A DNA stretch of 40,400 nt from contig CACOFQ010000013.1 of assembly GCA_902626505.1 (NCBI GenBank), positions 1 to 40,400 of the forward strand. The letters run 5' to 3'. The notes under the pieces were generated by a model. That model searched no databases. It was not told the origin of the DNA and worked only from the letters and a program-made list of their open reading frames with translations. The position numbers were made by a program, and so were the translations under genes. Positions within the stretch are counted from its first letter, which is position 1, and each line of letters begins with the position of its first letter. Shown here piece after piece: positions 31,351 through 39,527 of the stretch. Origin of the DNA: an uncultured Marinoscillum sp. Its GTDB lineage: Bacteria; Bacteroidota; Bacteroidia; Cytophagales; MED-G16.

Positions 31351-31358
31351 TATTTTTG
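31351..31358 (+). promoter_or_regulatory. -7 promoter element of the giant surface protein gene
   Basis: TATTTTTG matches TAnnTTTG and ends 21 bases before the ATG at 31380. Its last three bases are an in-frame TTG at 31356 that can be misread as the start codon. Confidence 0.5.
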
Positions 31359-31379
31359 GAAGATCTCTACAAATTAACG

Positions 31380-34300
31380 ATGAAAAAAAATTTTACCGCC
31401 TTATTTTTTCTCCTTTTTTCACTAGTTTTTTCTCCTTTTTCACAAACATCAGATCCTGAGGCTTCTATATCTAGAGATATTCCGGTTATAGCTGAAAATG
31501 GTGGTTCAGCCGAAATTAAGGTTTCATTATCCACGGCAGCTACTGCTGATATTGATGTGACTATTACCTTTACAGGAACTGCAGATATTAATGATGATTA
31601 TACCATCACAAATAATACATCTAGTGCAACACCTAATATCATAAGAATAAAAGCAGGAGATTCTGAGGGAACGATAACAATTAATACTGTTAATGACTCT
31701 GACGTTGAACTAGATGAACAAATTATAGCAGAAATTACTGCTATCTCTTCTGGTACTGTTGTTGCTCCAAGTACAGCGAAAGTTAAGATTAAAGATGATG
31801 ACTTATTTCTAAGCTTTGTAAAAGTTGATGCTCCTTTTGATGTTGATACGCTATATGAAGAAACACAAAATGAACTTGCATTTAGGATAGAACTTAATGA
31901 GCCTGCTCCAGAAGATATATCTGTTACCATTTCTGGAAGTGGTGATGGTTTTCAAAGTAGTGATGTTTCGTTAAATTCAACTCGTGTAATTAGACAGGGA
32001 ACCGATTTTGAAGCATTCAAAATAAAGGCTAGTGATGACGCTTATTTTGAGGATTTAGCTGAAAGCTTTTATTTAAAAATATCTTCCATAACTTCAGGCA
32101 CTGGAAAAATTGTTGAGGAAGATTCAATTAATCTTATCATTAAGGATAACGATCCTTCATATGTAGATTTTCATGTTGTCAAGAATACAGATACTGATGC
32201 AGATGGTATACCAGACAGAGCTGTTATTCCGGAAAAAAATGGGGAGACTATTTTAACTGCTTATTTACAGAGGCCTTTTGATAAAGAAATAAAATTAGGA
32301 ATAGATTATAAAAGACCTCAATCAACTGCAACATTTGAAGTAGATTGGGAATCTGATAAGGGTGATCTTGTCACAATTCCAGTTGGTGACACACTAGTTC
32401 AAATTAAAATATCTTCTATAGATGATCCTGATGAGGATCCAAATGAATCGCTCTACATATACTTAAATAATACTGATGGGAGTGATACTCCACCATCCGT
32501 AAATATAACCTTTGGAGCTCCCGTCCTTGTAAGAATTGATATAGAAGATGATGAAATTGGTCCTGTAGCTGGTGATGACGATTATACTTCTCAGTGTGTT
32601 ACAGAAGGTAATACTAATAAATCTAATCCAGGAAACAGAGATGTTCCGGATGCTGAAAAAACCTTAGATATAAATGCATCTGACGGCCTCCTTAAAAATG
32701 ATACAGAAGCCCAAGGTGAAGATTTAAGAGTAAACCCAATTCCAGTATCATACCCATCTCACGGTAGGGTATTTTGTGGAACTATTGAAAATCAAATCTG
32801 TCCAGATGGTTCATTTAGGTATGTCCATAATGGTAGTGAAACACCAACTAATGAAGATAAATTTTCATATGAAGTGCTTGATGAGCAAGATTTTTCAGAT
32901 GTGGGTATTGTTACGATATGTGTTACACCAGATAATGACTGCCCACAATTCAGAGGATTTTTACAAAAAGTTAATGAGTTTGATGTAGAAGATATTGATT
33001 TATATGGTTATACTACTGACTTAGAAGAAAGAGCAGGTATAGATCCTATCTTAAAATATAGAATTATTAGTCAAACAAAAGATGACGGGACAACACCGCC
33101 CTATGGTGTAGCTACAGTTACTGAACAGGGAAAATTAACATATACCGCGGCAGGATTTTTATCTGGGATTCAACCTAAAACTGATATTATTGAAATTGAA
33201 GTTGAGGATGGTGCGGGTTGTACGGCTAGAGACATAATGGAATTTCAGATAAATAATACTGCTCCTCAAGCAATTAATGACACTTTTGTTGTTTCTGTTG
33301 GGCAGAGAATTGATATTTCAGATGTAATGGGTCTATTGGCTAATGATCCAACATTTGCCGGTGCAACTATAAGAGCTAGCAAAGTTGATGATCCTATTCA
33401 CGCAATCGCCTCAGGACCAAATGGTTTTAAACTTAATTCAGATGGAAGTTTCCAGTATAAACATAATGGTGATCCAGTTGCAAAAGAAGATGGGTTTACC
33501 TATAAAATGACAATAATCTATGATAATGGTCAAATCGATGAAACAGAGGCTAGAGTCGTAATATTAATTAATGACTGTCCTGTCATTGAGAAAGATTTAT
33601 ACAGAATATGGGAGAATACTGACAGATTTACCGACACAGTTAGAATTCCTATAAATGGAATAAATTCTATTGATGGTCAACCATGGATTGGTGATAATGA
33701 TTATGATATTAATCTTGATGAGATAAAATATTTTATTGAGGATGATCCTCATGATTCACTAGGAAGTTACGCTGAAATTGATTCTGCGGGTAATTTGTTA
33801 TATGTTCAGGGTGGAGGAGAGTATACTCAAGAATTTTTTGTTTATAGGGGTACAGATCCTTATTGTGAATCAAACGCAGATACAATCTTTTTTGATATTA
33901 TGCCAAGAAATGACTGCCCAGAGACATTACTCAACGGATATAACAGTCTCGGTCTTACTGCTGGAGCTTCAATTAAAGACTATATTGACAGGCTACCCAA
34001 TGATAAAAATGGTAATCCTATATCGATTGATAGTGTTGATACAGATGCTACATCTGGTGATACTTTATTCGTATATGCTTCGGATGGTATTGTTTGGGTT
34101 CTAAATATGGATGAGGGGGGAACTTTAGCAATAGGCGCTCCGGGAATATTGAATAATGATACTGACGCTGAGAATGACTCGTTGTATACAAAAATTCTAC
34201 TTGAGGCTGATCACCCTATTTCTTTATATCCTCATTACTATAATGATGACGGTAGTTTTAAGTATCCTTATCCTCCTCACGCGGTTGATGTCGATGTGAA

Positions 34301-37300
34301 TAAAGATGGGTCTTTTTCCTATGAGCACGATGGCTCGAATGGATTAAGAGATGTTATTTATACATTAACTTGTGACTATCCAACATTGTCCATTATGGAT
34401 CCCACAAATAAAGAATGCTGTTCTGTTGATTCAATTATGTTAATATTTGGTCCTGATAATGCTTGTGGAGAGGGTTTGCCAGATTACTATACTCTGAATG
34501 AAGATGGTACTTTCACGGCTGATAAAACAACGACTGGAATAAATGAGTATATGTTAAATAAAACAGGCACTGAATATACGGGGGTATTTTCTAATGATTT
34601 TGATGAGGAAGGTGATTCGTTAGTTTTCTTGGGTATTTCATCCCCACCTGCCCATGGAATTATTGTTGGAGATACTATTTACCCTGATGGATCATTTACT
34701 TATATCCATGATGGGTTCCGTGAGACAACTGCAGATCAATTTACTTATGACATGACGGATTTGCCTCATTCTCCAAATGCCTGCGCTACAGTTACGGTAT
34801 ACTTAAATATAATTGAAGCTGAAGATTGTCCAGAGCCAATTAATCATATTTACGAAGTCGATGAAGGAGACACCTTAATAGTTAGAGGCCTTGCAAACGG
34901 CTCTGAAGGATCTTATTTAAAATTACCCGGAATAATGGGTCGTGGATTAGATGCGGCTAACATTGATGTAGACTTGGGTACATACCCAACAATTAGTGAG
35001 GATCTTATTGCTTATTATCCATTTAACGAGTATTACGACTCCATTCCTGGAATTCCTGCAGATGATGGTGATGGAGGTACAATACCAACTATTTGGGCTG
35101 TAAAGAAAGCAAAAGATTTAGGCCCTAATAATTTTGATGGGTTTTTAAAGGGAGGAACTCTTGATACCATTTCTGCTCCACAACCTACTGTACCAGATCC
35201 AAAGGGTGTATCGCCTCTTATTGCTCTCGAATGGAGTAATCCGCCACAGTACCAAAGAGATAGATTTAGAAGGCAGCTTAATTCATATCAATACGATGGA
35301 TCAGAATCATATGTTGAAGTTGAAGATGATATCTTAAACCTCAAAAGAGATTATTATTCTATATCTGGATGGTTTTATGTTTTTGATCCTGCAATTGATG
35401 GCAATTTTTTAAACTTTACAATAGATGACAAAGAGAAGGGATTGATATTAGGAATTAAAGGAGGAAAATTAGCATTAGGAATTGGTAATGGAGATGCATA
35501 TAGCGTAAGATTATTATCTGCTGTCAGTAGTGATGATATAATTGCAAGGGAATGGTACCACTTTGCTTTGATTAAAAATGAAAATAACTATAAGATTTTT
35601 CTAAATAGAGAAGAAATCTATTCTGATGACCTCGATAATTCATCTCTTCCTAATAAATCCTCAAAAATGTTTATTGGGAAATCTCTAGCTGGAAATAACT
35701 TCTTTGGTCGCTTTGACGATTTGCATATTATAGGAGATACAATATCACAAGACGATGTGTTAAAACTTTATTATAGCTTATCTACAAGTCTTGCAGGACA
35801 GGCTACATGGGGTGATGTGGATGTTGGAGTAGATGGGTCCTTTACTTATATCCATAATGGTGTAGGAGGCCAGCCAGAGGATCAATTTGTTTATGGTTTA
35901 TCAGATGGGCCTTGTGAGAAATTAAATATAGTTAAAATTATTGTAAAGCAAGTTAATGATTGTCCTATCGCTGACGATGACTACTATTCTGTAGATGAGG
36001 GTGACACATTAAAAATTAATGCTGCTAATGGAATACTTATCAATGATACTGACGAAGAAAATGACCCTTTAAATGCTGCTGTAGTTGATACAGCATTAAC
36101 TGGTTTGCCAGTAAACGGTACCATTAAAATAAATACTGACGGTTCTTTTGAATATATTCATGATGGTAGTGAAACATTAGAGGACTCAATAAGATATGTT
36201 GCTTATGATAATGATATAAACTGTACAGATACAGCTACCATCTTTATTACAATTAATCCTGTAGCAGATTGTCCAATACCAGAAGATGATATTTATGTTG
36301 TCAAAGAAGGAGGAGAGCTCGTAATAGGGGATGAATGCATTACAGTATATGACGAAAATGGTACTGGATACGAAAATTGGGATAATGATGAACCAAATGA
36401 CCTACCTCTTGAAGATTATGGAGAAATGTATGCATCAGGTACATGGAATGATATTACTAATACTCCAAAACAAAGGTATTTACTTGAAATGGAAAGTGGA
36501 GTAAATTCAGTTACAGATCACCAACCTTTGTCTTCTGGCTTCTCTTATAATGGGCATACATATTTTATTTCTAATCGAGAATTTGATTGGGAAACTGCAA
36601 GAACTGAGGCAGAGGATGCCGGTGGATACCTAGCAATCATTACTAGCCAAGCAGAAAATGATGCTATTTCTAGTTTATTAACCGAAACAGTATTTATTGG
36701 ACTATACCAAGACCCAGCTGATCAATATTTTAAGCCTAAGTTTGGAGGATGGAAATGGGTAGATGGTACGTACTTGTATGATGAAGGAAACTCATATCAG
36801 TTTTGTGGAGTACTTAGTAATGATGATAGAGGAGGTGGAGATTCTATATATGTTAGCTACCATGGATCTCCTTCACATGGAACTCTAGATGGAGGAATTG
36901 TGGAACGTGAGGGTACTTTTACGTATACCCACGATGGAAGTCAAAACTCAGATACAATCCTCTATAGGATTAGAAACTTATTTATTGACGTAACAGATAA
37001 TGCTGATGGAACTAAAAATTATAATATTCTTGATTCCTGTGAAAGTGATTACGGTAGGATAATTATTAATATTGAGAATGTAAATGATTGCCCAGTAGCA
37101 GTGAGAGATACTTTTTATGTTGACGAGGGTGGATCTCTTGACACAACAGGGGTTCTATTGAATGATTATGATGACGACGGAGACTTATTAAGAGCTGTGA
37201 AAGAGCCTTCTTCAAATTTTGAAAATGGAGATGGAAATGTTTTTGCCGATGGTAGATTAGTATATACTCATAGGGGAGAAGAGGTTTTTACGGATAGTAT

Positions 37301-39527
37301 TCAGTACAGAGTTTTAGATCTAGATAACTGTGATAGTTTAGGAACAGCAATAATTATCATAAATCCTGTCAATGATTTACCTGTTGCTGAGAAGGATAGC
37401 TTTGAAGTTAATGAGGGAGGAACTCTTGTTGTCGACGTCGCAAATGGGTTATTATCTAATGATACGGACGCTGAAAATGATAAATTAACGACCTTCATCA
37501 CAAAACTACCTACGGTAGGAAATTTAACATGCCCTTCTACAAATGCTAGTGGCATATGTACGGATGGTTCATTCACATATGAGCATGATGGATCGGATGA
37601 CCCTAACGAGGTGTGTTTTACATATGTAACCTATGATGGAGTTGGATTTTCTCAACCAACTGAAGTTTGTATAAAAATATTAAATAGAGTTCCTGATTGT
37701 CCTGATATTATTGAATATTCAGTTAATGAAGATGAAGTATTAACTACTGATCTTTCAAATGGTATTCTTGAGAATTATTGTCAAGATCCAGATCCCCAGG
37801 ATGTGATGAGAGTTATTCCTGATTCGTTGCATGCTTCTTTAACTGGTGCATTTGTTTTAAATGATGATGGAACTTTTGTATATGATCATGACTGCTCAGA
37901 TGATCCTAATGAAACATGGTTTACTTATTTTGTAACAGATGGAGAGGATACTACTCAGGTTGCTGATACAGTAAAAATTAATATTTTAAATGAATGTCCT
38001 ATAGGTAATGATGACTTGTATAGCGGTGTTAGCGAAGGAGATGTATTAACTATAGATCCTTCTAATGGTGTTGCCTCAAATGATGAAGAAAAAAACCAAT
38101 GTGATATATTAGAAATTACACTCCTGCAAAATTCAGGACCTTTATTTGGAGATTTGGATCTTAAATCTGATGGGTCTTTTACTTATGAACATGATGACAG
38201 TGAAAACTTTACGGACGAATTTAAATATTTATTGAATGATGGAGAATGTCTTGTTCCTGATACTGTCACTGTAACAATAAGAATTGAACCAGTTCCAGAT
38301 ACTCCTCCGGTAGCGGTTGAAGATTCTTTTGATTGTATAGATGAAGGAGATTCACTTATAATCGCTTTCCGTGATGATGGTATTTTATATAATGACTATG
38401 ATGATGACCCTGGACAAACTCAAACTTTAAGAACATTTGTTGTAGATAAACCACTCCATGCTAAGCAGTTTATACTAAATACTGATGGCACTTTCATTTA
38501 TAAACATGATGGTGGTGAGTCAACCACAGATTCTTTTACTTATTTTGTTACAGATGACAATAATCTAAATAGTGACACAGTTACTGTAAAATTATGTATC
38601 AATCCTGTTAACGACTGTCCTGTTCCTATCGATGATATATTTAACATTAATGAAAGTGATGTAATTGACTCAACCCTTATATTTAATGATTTTGATGTTG
38701 AAGGAAATGAACTTCTTGTTAATGTAATAAATAATCCTTCGATAGGTGGATTTAATTGGAATCAAGACGGAACATTTATTTATACTGCACCAGATGATAT
38801 TCAAGCTCCTGGGCCTGAAATTATTACTTTTGAGTATACTCTGTCTGACATTGATGACGCTTTTCTTAATTGTAATGACACAGCAACAGTCACTATTATA
38901 ATAAATTATGAAAATGATTGTCCAATTACAGAAGATGATTCAATAATTGTAGATGGAACTGTTGCCAGCTCTAGAATTATAAATATTTTAGATAACGACT
39001 CTGACCCTGATTCGGATATTGATACTACAAGTGTAAAAATCATTTCTGGTCCAACTTTTGGAAATGCCATATCAAATATTGATGGAACTATAACTTATAA
39101 TTTTGATGAGTCTCCTATACCTTTCGATACAATTACATATAGTGTAAGTGACTACGAAGGGTGTGAAGTTTTAGGAAAAGTTTATATCTATGTAGATAAT
39201 CTTAGAAATCCAATATATAACCTACCAAATTATTTTACTCCAAATGGTGATGACTTTAACGACTTCTTCTTGATAAAATATGAGAATATCTTAAGAGAAG
39301 ATTTAAGTTTTGAGGTGAAAATTTTTGATAGATATCAAAGAATGGTTTATGAAGGAGTAGTAGAGTCCTCCGATAAAATTTGGAATGGAATGAGCTCATT
39401 TACCTCTGAAATTGTTAAGACAGATTTCTATTTCTATGAGATAACTCCAGTTGAATATTATAATACTCCTTATGTGAGGAGAAGGGATAAAATATTAGGA
39501 ACTGTATACCTAGAGAAAGAAAGATAA
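31380..39527 (+). CDS. Giant T9SS cargo surface protein with Calx-beta, cadherin-like, LamG and C-type lectin domains
   Basis: Secreted modular protein of 2715 aa, probably a cell-surface adhesin or polysaccharide-binding protein. Order: Sec signal peptide (MKKNFTALFFLLFSLVFSPFS); three Calx-beta-like domains (31452-32558); about sixteen cadherin-like repeats of about 100 aa (32560-39200), each with a DEGxTL-like strand, LLNDTDxExD, DGSFxYxHDG and a closing NDCP; and a type B T9SS sorting domain (39201-39524) with FTPNGDDFNDFF and KIFDRYQRMVYEG. A LamG-like domain is inserted in repeat 7 and a C-type lectin domain, with its halves swapped, in repeat 9. I start at the ATG 31380, because the TTG at 31356 lies inside the -7 element and would put residues before the signal peptide. 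The protein is very acidic and Asp-rich, consistent with calcium binding. No SprF/PorP-like partner gene is adjacent. The ligand is unknown. Confidence 0.93.
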   Translation: MKKNFTALFFLLFSLVFSPFSQTSDPEASISRDIPVIAENGGSAEIKVSLSTAATADIDVTITFTGTADINDDYTITNNTSSATPNIIRIKAGDSEGTITINTVNDSDVELDEQIIAEITAISSGTVVAPSTAKVKIKDDDLFLSFVKVDAPFDVDTLYEETQNELAFRIELNEPAPEDISVTISGSGDGFQSSDVSLNSTRVIRQGTDFEAFKIKASDDAYFEDLAESFYLKISSITSGTGKIVEEDSINLIIKDNDPSYVDFHVVKNTDTDADGIPDRAVIPEKNGETILTAYLQRPFDKEIKLGIDYKRPQSTATFEVDWESDKGDLVTIPVGDTLVQIKISSIDDPDEDPNESLYIYLNNTDGSDTPPSVNITFGAPVLVRIDIEDDEIGPVAGDDDYTSQCVTEGNTNKSNPGNRDVPDAEKTLDINASDGLLKNDTEAQGEDLRVNPIPVSYPSHGRVFCGTIENQICPDGSFRYVHNGSETPTNEDKFSYEVLDEQDFSDVGIVTICVTPDNDCPQFRGFLQKVNEFDVEDIDLYGYTTDLEERAGIDPILKYRIISQTKDDGTTPPYGVATVTEQGKLTYTAAGFLSGIQPKTDIIEIEVEDGAGCTARDIMEFQINNTAPQAINDTFVVSVGQRIDISDVMGLLANDPTFAGATIRASKVDDPIHAIASGPNGFKLNSDGSFQYKHNGDPVAKEDGFTYKMTIIYDNGQIDETEARVVILINDCPVIEKDLYRIWENTDRFTDTVRIPINGINSIDGQPWIGDNDYDINLDEIKYFIEDDPHDSLGSYAEIDSAGNLLYVQGGGEYTQEFFVYRGTDPYCESNADTIFFDIMPRNDCPETLLNGYNSLGLTAGASIKDYIDRLPNDKNGNPISIDSVDTDATSGDTLFVYASDGIVWVLNMDEGGTLAIGAPGILNNDTDAENDSLYTKILLEADHPISLYPHYYNDDGSFKYPYPPHAVDVDVNKDGSFSYEHDGSNGLRDVIYTLTCDYPTLSIMDPTNKECCSVDSIMLIFGPDNACGEGLPDYYTLNEDGTFTADKTTTGINEYMLNKTGTEYTGVFSNDFDEEGDSLVFLGISSPPAHGIIVGDTIYPDGSFTYIHDGFRETTADQFTYDMTDLPHSPNACATVTVYLNIIEAEDCPEPINHIYEVDEGDTLIVRGLANGSEGSYLKLPGIMGRGLDAANIDVDLGTYPTISEDLIAYYPFNEYYDSIPGIPADDGDGGTIPTIWAVKKAKDLGPNNFDGFLKGGTLDTISAPQPTVPDPKGVSPLIALEWSNPPQYQRDRFRRQLNSYQYDGSESYVEVEDDILNLKRDYYSISGWFYVFDPAIDGNFLNFTIDDKEKGLILGIKGGKLALGIGNGDAYSVRLLSAVSSDDIIAREWYHFALIKNENNYKIFLNREEIYSDDLDNSSLPNKSSKMFIGKSLAGNNFFGRFDDLHIIGDTISQDDVLKLYYSLSTSLAGQATWGDVDVGVDGSFTYIHNGVGGQPEDQFVYGLSDGPCEKLNIVKIIVKQVNDCPIADDDYYSVDEGDTLKINAANGILINDTDEENDPLNAAVVDTALTGLPVNGTIKINTDGSFEYIHDGSETLEDSIRYVAYDNDINCTDTATIFITINPVADCPIPEDDIYVVKEGGELVIGDECITVYDENGTGYENWDNDEPNDLPLEDYGEMYASGTWNDITNTPKQRYLLEMESGVNSVTDHQPLSSGFSYNGHTYFISNREFDWETARTEAEDAGGYLAIITSQAENDAISSLLTETVFIGLYQDPADQYFKPKFGGWKWVDGTYLYDEGNSYQFCGVLSNDDRGGGDSIYVSYHGSPSHGTLDGGIVEREGTFTYTHDGSQNSDTILYRIRNLFIDVTDNADGTKNYNILDSCESDYGRIIINIENVNDCPVAVRDTFYVDEGGSLDTTGVLLNDYDDDGDLLRAVKEPSSNFENGDGNVFADGRLVYTHRGEEVFTDSIQYRVLDLDNCDSLGTAIIIINPVNDLPVAEKDSFEVNEGGTLVVDVANGLLSNDTDAENDKLTTFITKLPTVGNLTCPSTNASGICTDGSFTYEHDGSDDPNEVCFTYVTYDGVGFSQPTEVCIKILNRVPDCPDIIEYSVNEDEVLTTDLSNGILENYCQDPDPQDVMRVIPDSLHASLTGAFVLNDDGTFVYDHDCSDDPNETWFTYFVTDGEDTTQVADTVKINILNECPIGNDDLYSGVSEGDVLTIDPSNGVASNDEEKNQCDILEITLLQNSGPLFGDLDLKSDGSFTYEHDDSENFTDEFKYLLNDGECLVPDTVTVTIRIEPVPDTPPVAVEDSFDCIDEGDSLIIAFRDDGILYNDYDDDPGQTQTLRTFVVDKPLHAKQFILNTDGTFIYKHDGGESTTDSFTYFVTDDNNLNSDTVTVKLCINPVNDCPVPIDDIFNINESDVIDSTLIFNDFDVEGNELLVNVINNPSIGGFNWNQDGTFIYTAPDDIQAPGPEIITFEYTLSDIDDAFLNCNDTATVTIIINYENDCPITEDDSIIVDGTVASSRIINILDNDSDPDSDIDTTSVKIISGPTFGNAISNIDGTITYNFDESPIPFDTITYSVSDYEGCEVLGKVYIYVDNLRNPIYNLPNYFTPNGDDFNDFFLIKYENILREDLSFEVKIFDRYQRMVYEGVVESSDKIWNGMSSFTSEIVKTDFYFYEITPVEYYNTPYVRRRDKILGTVYLEKER
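31452..32558 (+). other. Three Calx-beta-like domains of the giant protein
   Basis: Three stretches of about 115-135 residues end in IKDDD (about 31803), IKDND (about 32152) and IEDDE (about 32553). They contain Calx-beta features such as VIAENGGSAEIKVSLS, an ITINTVNDSDVELDE-type strand, and DPDEDPNESLYIYL. Calx-beta folds bind calcium in other proteins. The third is longer and starts with an unusual DTDADGIPDRAV segment resembling a calcium loop. Confidence 0.7.
34992..35774 (+). other. LamG/concanavalin-like domain inserted in cadherin-like repeat 7
   Basis: A canonical LamG-type order is visible: LIAYYPFNEYYDS, DLGPNNFDGFLKGGTL, YQYDGSESYVEVEDD, YYSISGWFYVF, EWYHFALIKNENNYKIFLNREEI, KMFIGKSLAGNNFFGRFDDLHII and DDVLKLYY. 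The host repeat resumes right after with GQATWGDVDVGVDGSFTYIHNG. Such domains commonly bind sugars. Confidence 0.75.
36348..36800 (+). other. C-type lectin domain with swapped halves inserted in cadherin-like repeat 9
   Basis: The C-terminal half of a C-type lectin domain comes first (36348-36500): YENWDNDEPND with an EPN sugar/calcium motif, EDYGEMYASGTWND with WND, then QRYLLEME. After a short linker the N-terminal half follows (36538-36800): FSYNGHTYFISN, FDWETARTEAEDAGGYLAIITS, AEND, VFIGLYQD and GGWKWVDGTYLYDEGNSY. The usual order is the reverse. Both outer edges carry a similar segment (YDENGTGY and YDEGNSY). Confidence 0.7.
39201..39524 (+). other. T9SS type B C-terminal sorting domain
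   Basis: The last 108 residues carry the gliding-motility-associated type B sorting pattern: NLPNYFTPNGDDFNDFFLI, FEVKIFDRYQRMVYEG, IWNGMSS, VKTDFYFYEIT and ILGTVYLEKER at the end. This directs the protein through the type IX secretion system to the cell surface or medium. Confidence 0.88.

Follow-up and report, generated by a model that had tools for sequence, protein, structure and literature searches.

The window, by which we mean the whole 40,400-nucleotide stretch of DNA that was analyzed, comes from an uncultured Marinoscillum sp. (Cytophagales according to NCBI), and at its end it contains a large open reading frame on the plus strand (31356-39527) that encodes a protein of 2,723 amino acids. 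The frame as listed starts with the TTG codon at position 31356, and the first ATG is located at position 31380. According to Pfam, this host protein contains Cadherin_4 in 15 stretches, together with one Laminin_G_3 and a CHU_C domain. Its C-terminus matches the NCBIfam model of the T9SS type B sorting domain (TIGR04131) with 40.2 bits, the cut-off being 35. The first-pass annotation had taken the protein to be T9SS cargo, a view with which the TIGR04131 and CHU_C matches agree.

One of the cadherin-like repeats, at protein residues ~1650-1830, is interrupted by two stretches that resemble the halves of a C-type lectin domain (CTLD), a sugar-binding module familiar above all from animal immune receptors (Table 1). 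Read from the host repeat into the insert, the order is VVKEGGELVIGDEC, a short edge, YENWDNDEPNDLPLEDYGEMYASGTWNDITNTPKQRYLLEME, a linker and YNGHTYFISNREFDWETARTEAEDAGGYLAIITSQAEN...VFIGLYQD...GGWKWVDG, after which the repeat resumes at CGVLSNDD; within the insert, ...ITVYDENGTGYENWDNDEPNDLPLEDYGEMYASGTWNDITNTPKQRYLLEMESG is followed by the linker, which is ~17 residues long in the window unit, and then by YNGHTYFIS...GGYLAIITSQAEN...VFIGLYQD...GGWKWVDG. Sequence, Pfam and phmmer agree that the half carrying EPN and WND lies ahead of the half carrying GGYLA, IGL and WKWVDG, as the first-pass annotation had read it. In the copies that were read, the new ends flank the gap between WVDG and YxNW, and the old termini are joined by the linker. 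The earlier placement of the lectin halves inside a cadherin-like repeat also stands, because the repeat is continuous once the insert is removed: the Cadherin_4 match rises from 14.6 bits (profile positions 18-71) with the insert to 31.4 bits (14-71 of 71) after excision. The window unit has just two cysteines, one at each border, which may form a disulfide clamp; no cysteine for an intradomain CTLD disulfide was found inside the unit. The similarity between the outer edges (YDENGTGY and YDEGNSY), previously read as the trace of a duplication, fared less well: it has a shuffle p of ~0.05 in the window and is absent in six orthologues (p 0.57-1.0), and for lack of conservation in these six it was dropped as a duplication fossil.

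Table 1. Features of the host gene and of the interrupted cadherin-like repeat (window positions).
Feature	Position	Strand	Evidence or remark
Host gene, giant secreted cadherin-repeat protein	31380..39527	+	Open reading frame; signal-like N-terminus; T9SS type B C-terminal sorting domain
First part of host cadherin-like repeat (CPIPEDDIYVVKEGGELVIGDE)	36270..36335	+	Cadherin_4 match after in silico excision
Cys codon, left insert border	36336..36338	+	Cys at both borders in cadherin-type orthologues
CTLD C-terminal half (YENW..EPN..ED..WND..YLLEME), placed first	36369..36494	+	phmmer, hhalign, AlphaFold2 pLDDT 92-98
EPN codons, calcium/sugar-site motif	36390..36398	+	Sequence
WND codons, calcium-site motif	36444..36452	+	Sequence
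Linker, original C-terminus to original N-terminus	36495..36545	+	Alignments A1 and A3; contiguous in all orthologues
CTLD N-terminal half (YNGHTYF..GGYLA..IGLYQD..GGWKWVDG), placed second	36546..36767	+	Pfam Lectin_C, hhalign, AlphaFold2
Cys codon, right insert border	36804..36806	+	Conserved in cadherin-type orthologues
Second part of host cadherin-like repeat (GVLSNDD...INIENVNDCPVAVRD)	36807..37109	+	Cadherin_4/Big_9 match back on excision

Several comparisons relate the two stretches to canonical CTLDs. Pfam Lectin_C (PF00059) matches only the second stretch of the host protein (residues 1745-1824, profile positions 5-76 of 107), this N-terminal half scoring 27.8 bits against a cut-off of 22.6; in canonical CTLD controls, the match extends to profile position 96-104. 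When the PDB was searched with phmmer, both stretches matched the same lectin chains in opposite order. In the case of SP-A (4wrc), query positions 21-52 align with chain positions 104-135 and positions 87-143 with 37-96, and in that of DC-SIGN (2xr6) positions 84-161 align with 29-102 and positions 26-73 with 107-152. Furthermore, we carried out a doubling test with hhalign, in which a profile of 36 permuted units was compared with a profile of 109 canonical bacterial CTLDs. Columns 59-148 of the single permuted profile align with canonical positions 3-86, and columns 9-57 with positions 84-132 of 133 (scores 160 and 92; E 4e-28 and 8e-16). The doubled profile gives one match that spans the junction (columns 59-209 to canonical positions 3-132 of 133, 128 columns) with a score of 242 and an E-value of 9e-39. 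Between them, the two reversed pieces cover canonical positions 3-132 of 133 completely, and no part of the canonical core is lost or doubled. The doubling test, together with the 35-39 copies at other loci, rules out chance. Two partial lectin matches in reversed order, which the first-pass annotation had proposed to look for, are what phmmer and hhalign returned, Lectin_C matching the N-terminal half only, and Pfam gave no full-length lectin match in normal order for the host protein, the result that had been named as evidence to the contrary. The reversal of order is confirmed, and the window segment is a naturally circularly permuted CTLD inside one cadherin-like repeat.

The permuted unit is conserved in the family of the window genome. 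Among 98 related genomes searched, eight besides the window genome, all from its family, contain the whole unit, C-terminal half before N-terminal half (C-N), as single matches (47-51% identity). A profile search yielded full-length permuted matches in 13 of the 15 family genomes (~35 copies), the two genomes without one being 54% and 79% complete. All 24 Lectin_C matches across these 15 genomes end at or before profile position 85 of 107, and no normal-order CTLD was detected in them with Lectin_C. The contig search that found the named orthologues used a close alignment (A2) as query; with the single window protein as query, no match was obtained. These orthologues come from marine metagenome-assembled genomes (MAGs) and single-cell genomes (MED-G19, Marinoscillum MED1001, AG-895-E03, AG-426-P19 and an uncultured Flammeovirgaceae). 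No relatives were found in IMG/VR, on which ground viral spread was rejected. In three genomes of only ~1.2-1.6 Mb we also observed frames of ~7,600-8,600 residues that contain several permuted CTLDs (G000:C11, G009:C23 and G010:C3).

The apparent reversal could be due to an assembly or binning artefact, or to a one-off rearrangement of the window gene, and it is true that the window genome is fragmented (1.55 Mb in 60 contigs). However, the eight further family genomes that keep the C-N order include independent MAGs as well as single-cell genomes, generated in different projects. These orthologues in independent assemblies refute the artefact reading, to which we give practically no chance, and exclude the assembly error against which the first-pass annotation had cautioned. 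Alternatively, the C-terminal half of one canonical CTLD and the N-terminal half of the next in a tandem array might have been mistaken for a permuted domain. Such read-through is real at six other loci (L162, L139, L158, L111, L115 and L118), but the flanks in the window family consist of host domain on both sides, with no N-terminal half before and no C-terminal half after the unit, and the genomes of this family gave no canonical CTLD with Lectin_C. The host-domain flanks refute this reading for the window and its orthologues, leaving it a negligible likelihood.

Every permuted copy with readable flanks is bordered on both sides by one and the same host domain. In Sediminibacterium the host is a HYR repeat, whose match increases from 42.3 bits (profile positions 40-81) with the insert to 52.8 bits (8-81 of 81) after excision. 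By their flanks, other hosts look like Ig-like domains, Calx-beta repeats (two different loops) and an EAGF-type calcium-binding repeat, and further ones like an IgGFc-binding-like N-terminal domain, a DUF11-like and a SwmB-like domain; these non-cadherin, non-HYR names were given by reading the flanks, for which Pfam matches are weak or lacking. The permuted CTLD in a T9SS cargo protein is borne out, but it is not the single oddity that it had seemed to be, as it belongs to a family of nested copies in several host domains. At three loci (L033, L034 and L037), canonical CTLDs are apparently nested in Ig/PKD-like domains that resume at LWSTGDTT, and their insert position is similar to that of the permuted copies in Ig-like hosts. 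The Laminin_G_3 domain of the host protein (residues 1314-1468, window ~35295-35760) lies inside another of its cadherin-like repeats, and a LamG-like domain was observed within a Calx-beta-like repeat elsewhere (L019, frame 0, residues 500-740). The loop nesting of binding domains seems to be a general habit of these adhesins.

Beyond the family, we searched samples of 395 genomes of the class, 291 of the order and 395 of the phylum, in which the matches were partial; wherever the two halves turned up together, they stood in normal order. When the retrieved loci were scanned for half-domains, permuted single units came to light in five Chitinophagaceae (L096-L100), including Sediminibacterium roseum SYL130; in the sampled genomes of the Chitinophagaceae group, the permuted form is present in only 3 of 246, and the remaining matches either cover the domain only in part or show the normal order. 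The marine single-cell genome AG-453-G16 contains several permuted copies, four according to one scan, two of which are in a C-N-C-N run of halves. This run (L102, frame 1, residues 3330-3640) occupies one host loop and could be either two tandem permuted units or a duplication intermediate. In a 4,005-residue frame of Gammaproteobacteria MED690, a CTLD C-terminal half is followed by a degenerate stretch resembling an N-terminal half (L110, frame 1, residues 3330-3440), possibly a further permuted copy outside the Bacteroidota.

How the permuted unit may have arisen can be approached through the HYR repeats. HYR repeats of other Bacteroidota hold nested canonical CTLDs (L133, L129, L144 and L048), mostly in the loop after the ATDN motif, and in Saprospiraceae two or three canonical CTLDs are present in tandem in the HYR loop (L109, L111 and L139). 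The HYR loop that holds canonical CTLDs elsewhere carries the permuted unit in Chitinophagaceae, and in one Chitinophagaceae genome (G1008) a canonical (L208) and a permuted CTLD (L099/L201) are found in the same HYR loop. This series of canonical, tandem canonical and permuted forms in one loop fits a history of tandem duplication in which the outer halves later disappeared. Judged from these sequences, the most likely starting point is a CTLD that a host domain already carried in one of its loops. Tandem duplication and subsequent loss of the outer halves would have left a C-terminal and an N-terminal half, flanked by the two pieces of that host domain, and the permuted module would later have entered loops in other host domains. 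The breakpoint that the permuted copies have in common, between WxWVDG and YxNW..EPN in the long-loop region of the CTLD, suggests that they share one origin. In the tree, the permuted copies are on one side of a branch with a support of 29/0, which is too low to decide between one and several origins.

The window unit was modelled together with its host repeat by AlphaFold2, using 15 aligned sequences from the retrieved loci. The unit, residues 31-170 of the modelled piece, has block means of pLDDT of ~89-98, and its strands and helices follow one another as would be predicted for a rotated CTLD; the host cadherin-like repeat has low confidence, and the pTM is 0.59. With a poorly modelled host, this pTM would be about that of one rigid body comprising approximately half of the residues, which speaks for packing of both halves together. 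The Sediminibacterium unit modelled with its HYR host has a mean pLDDT of 82.6. When the models were compared with the PDB by Foldseek, no lectin was among the matches listed, and BFVD gave one lectin match only, which was insignificant. Foldseek aligns in sequence order, and a permuted domain can match by half at best; the N-terminal half alone, on the other hand, might have been expected to match, which counts against a single fold. The first-pass annotation had named, as evidence to the contrary, a structure model in which the halves do not form one lectin fold; this point is answered in part, as AlphaFold2 is confident over the unit but the order-dependent Foldseek searches found no lectin. 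The permuted unit is predicted to adopt one compact CTLD fold.

Alternatively, each half might pair with the complementary half of a different unit or chain to make up a CTLD (domain swapping), in which case there would be no permuted fold. This would suit the giant paralogues that hold several units per chain and the C-N-C-N run of AG-453-G16, whose middle N-C pair is in normal order. It is improbable for the window protein, however, since that protein has a single unit, C-terminal half then N-terminal half, between the halves of the host; the linker is short and conserved, and AlphaFold2 has high confidence for the single unit, with a pTM that would correspond to one rigid body. Even less probable, in our opinion, is that the insert consists of two vestigial half-domains that are decaying or serve only as structural spacers. 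Although Ig-nested paralogues have lost the calcium motif, the EPN..E..WND and core residues are kept in cadherin- and HYR-type orthologues at ~50% identity.

The window unit has the EPN..ED..WND pattern. Compared with mannose-binding protein, it keeps the Glu and Asn of EPN, the Glu that follows, and the Asn and Asp of WND, which we take to be the calcium/sugar site. Of 39 permuted copies, 20 keep the EPN..E..WND pattern, including cadherin-type and HYR-type ones (L067 has EPS and WDD), and it is degraded in most Ig-nested copies; sugar binding can therefore not be general to permuted units. We propose that the permuted unit folds as one CTLD whose retained EPN..E..WND residues would bind calcium and a glycan, which would give an adhesive rod on the cell surface one binding site on its side. 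From its motifs, the window unit most likely serves a secreted adhesin of this rod-like kind as a site of calcium-dependent glycan binding. Taking everything together, we estimate at about 0.86 the probability of our overall reading, namely a natural circularly permuted CTLD inserted in a cadherin loop of a T9SS protein, which probably arose by duplication and then spread, and would bind calcium and glycan.

It is tempting to speculate, though we consider it rather unlikely, that the permutation is an adaptation that flips the nested lectin on the rod and yields a mobile recognition cassette of giant adhesins. In a canonical nested CTLD, the host would hold the base and the calcium/sugar site would point outward, whereas in a permuted CTLD the host would hold the long loop and the site would abut host loops, giving a composite binding site shaped by the host. 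If true, the permuted form would have been fixed and have spread into many host domains as such a cassette. The CTLD is among the most used recognition folds, and its natural permuted form is here conserved across a bacterial family. Canonical and permuted forms in the same loop of one genome make the permutation route (nested, tandem, outer halves lost) directly comparable, and the system lends itself to the question of how binding depends on whether a lectin is mounted by its loop or its base. Standard Pfam scans catch half of the unit or none, so that current annotation overlooks modules of this kind.

Among sugar-binding folds, natural circular permutation is known from concanavalin A and was reportedly described for carbohydrate-binding modules by Montanier and colleagues in 2010 (cited in PMC4444583). 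Our unit resembles these cases in this respect, but their folds are beta-sandwiches, with no relation to the C-type lectin fold. The NC1 domain of collagen IV is given in PMC3779223 as an outlier of the C-type lectin-like superfamily with swapped segments. It shares with our unit a rearranged connectivity and the structural superfamily of the CTLD; unlike it, this domain of an animal extracellular matrix protein shows segment swapping between subdomains and no circular permutation. No described circularly permuted CTLD was found in the freely accessible journal literature that was searched. Our unit can also be compared with the HYR-nested canonical CTLDs (L133, L129, L144, L048 and L208) and the Saprospiraceae tandems (L109, L111 and L139), which likewise sit in the loop of a beta-sandwich repeat, the HYR loop being that of the permuted Chitinophagaceae copies. 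However, their order is N-then-C, which places the attachment to the host at the lectin base and not at the long loop. With canonical CTLDs (PF00059), such as those of DC-SIGN, SP-A and mannose-binding protein, the window unit shares homology of both halves, the EPN/E/WND pattern of the calcium site and, by prediction, the succession of strands and helices inside each half. It differs from them in that its halves are reversed, with new ends in the long-loop region, in that it has no internal disulfide cysteines, and in that it is nested in another domain via its loop side. The rotated CTLD is a real and stable form of a known domain and is unusual in its habit of nesting.
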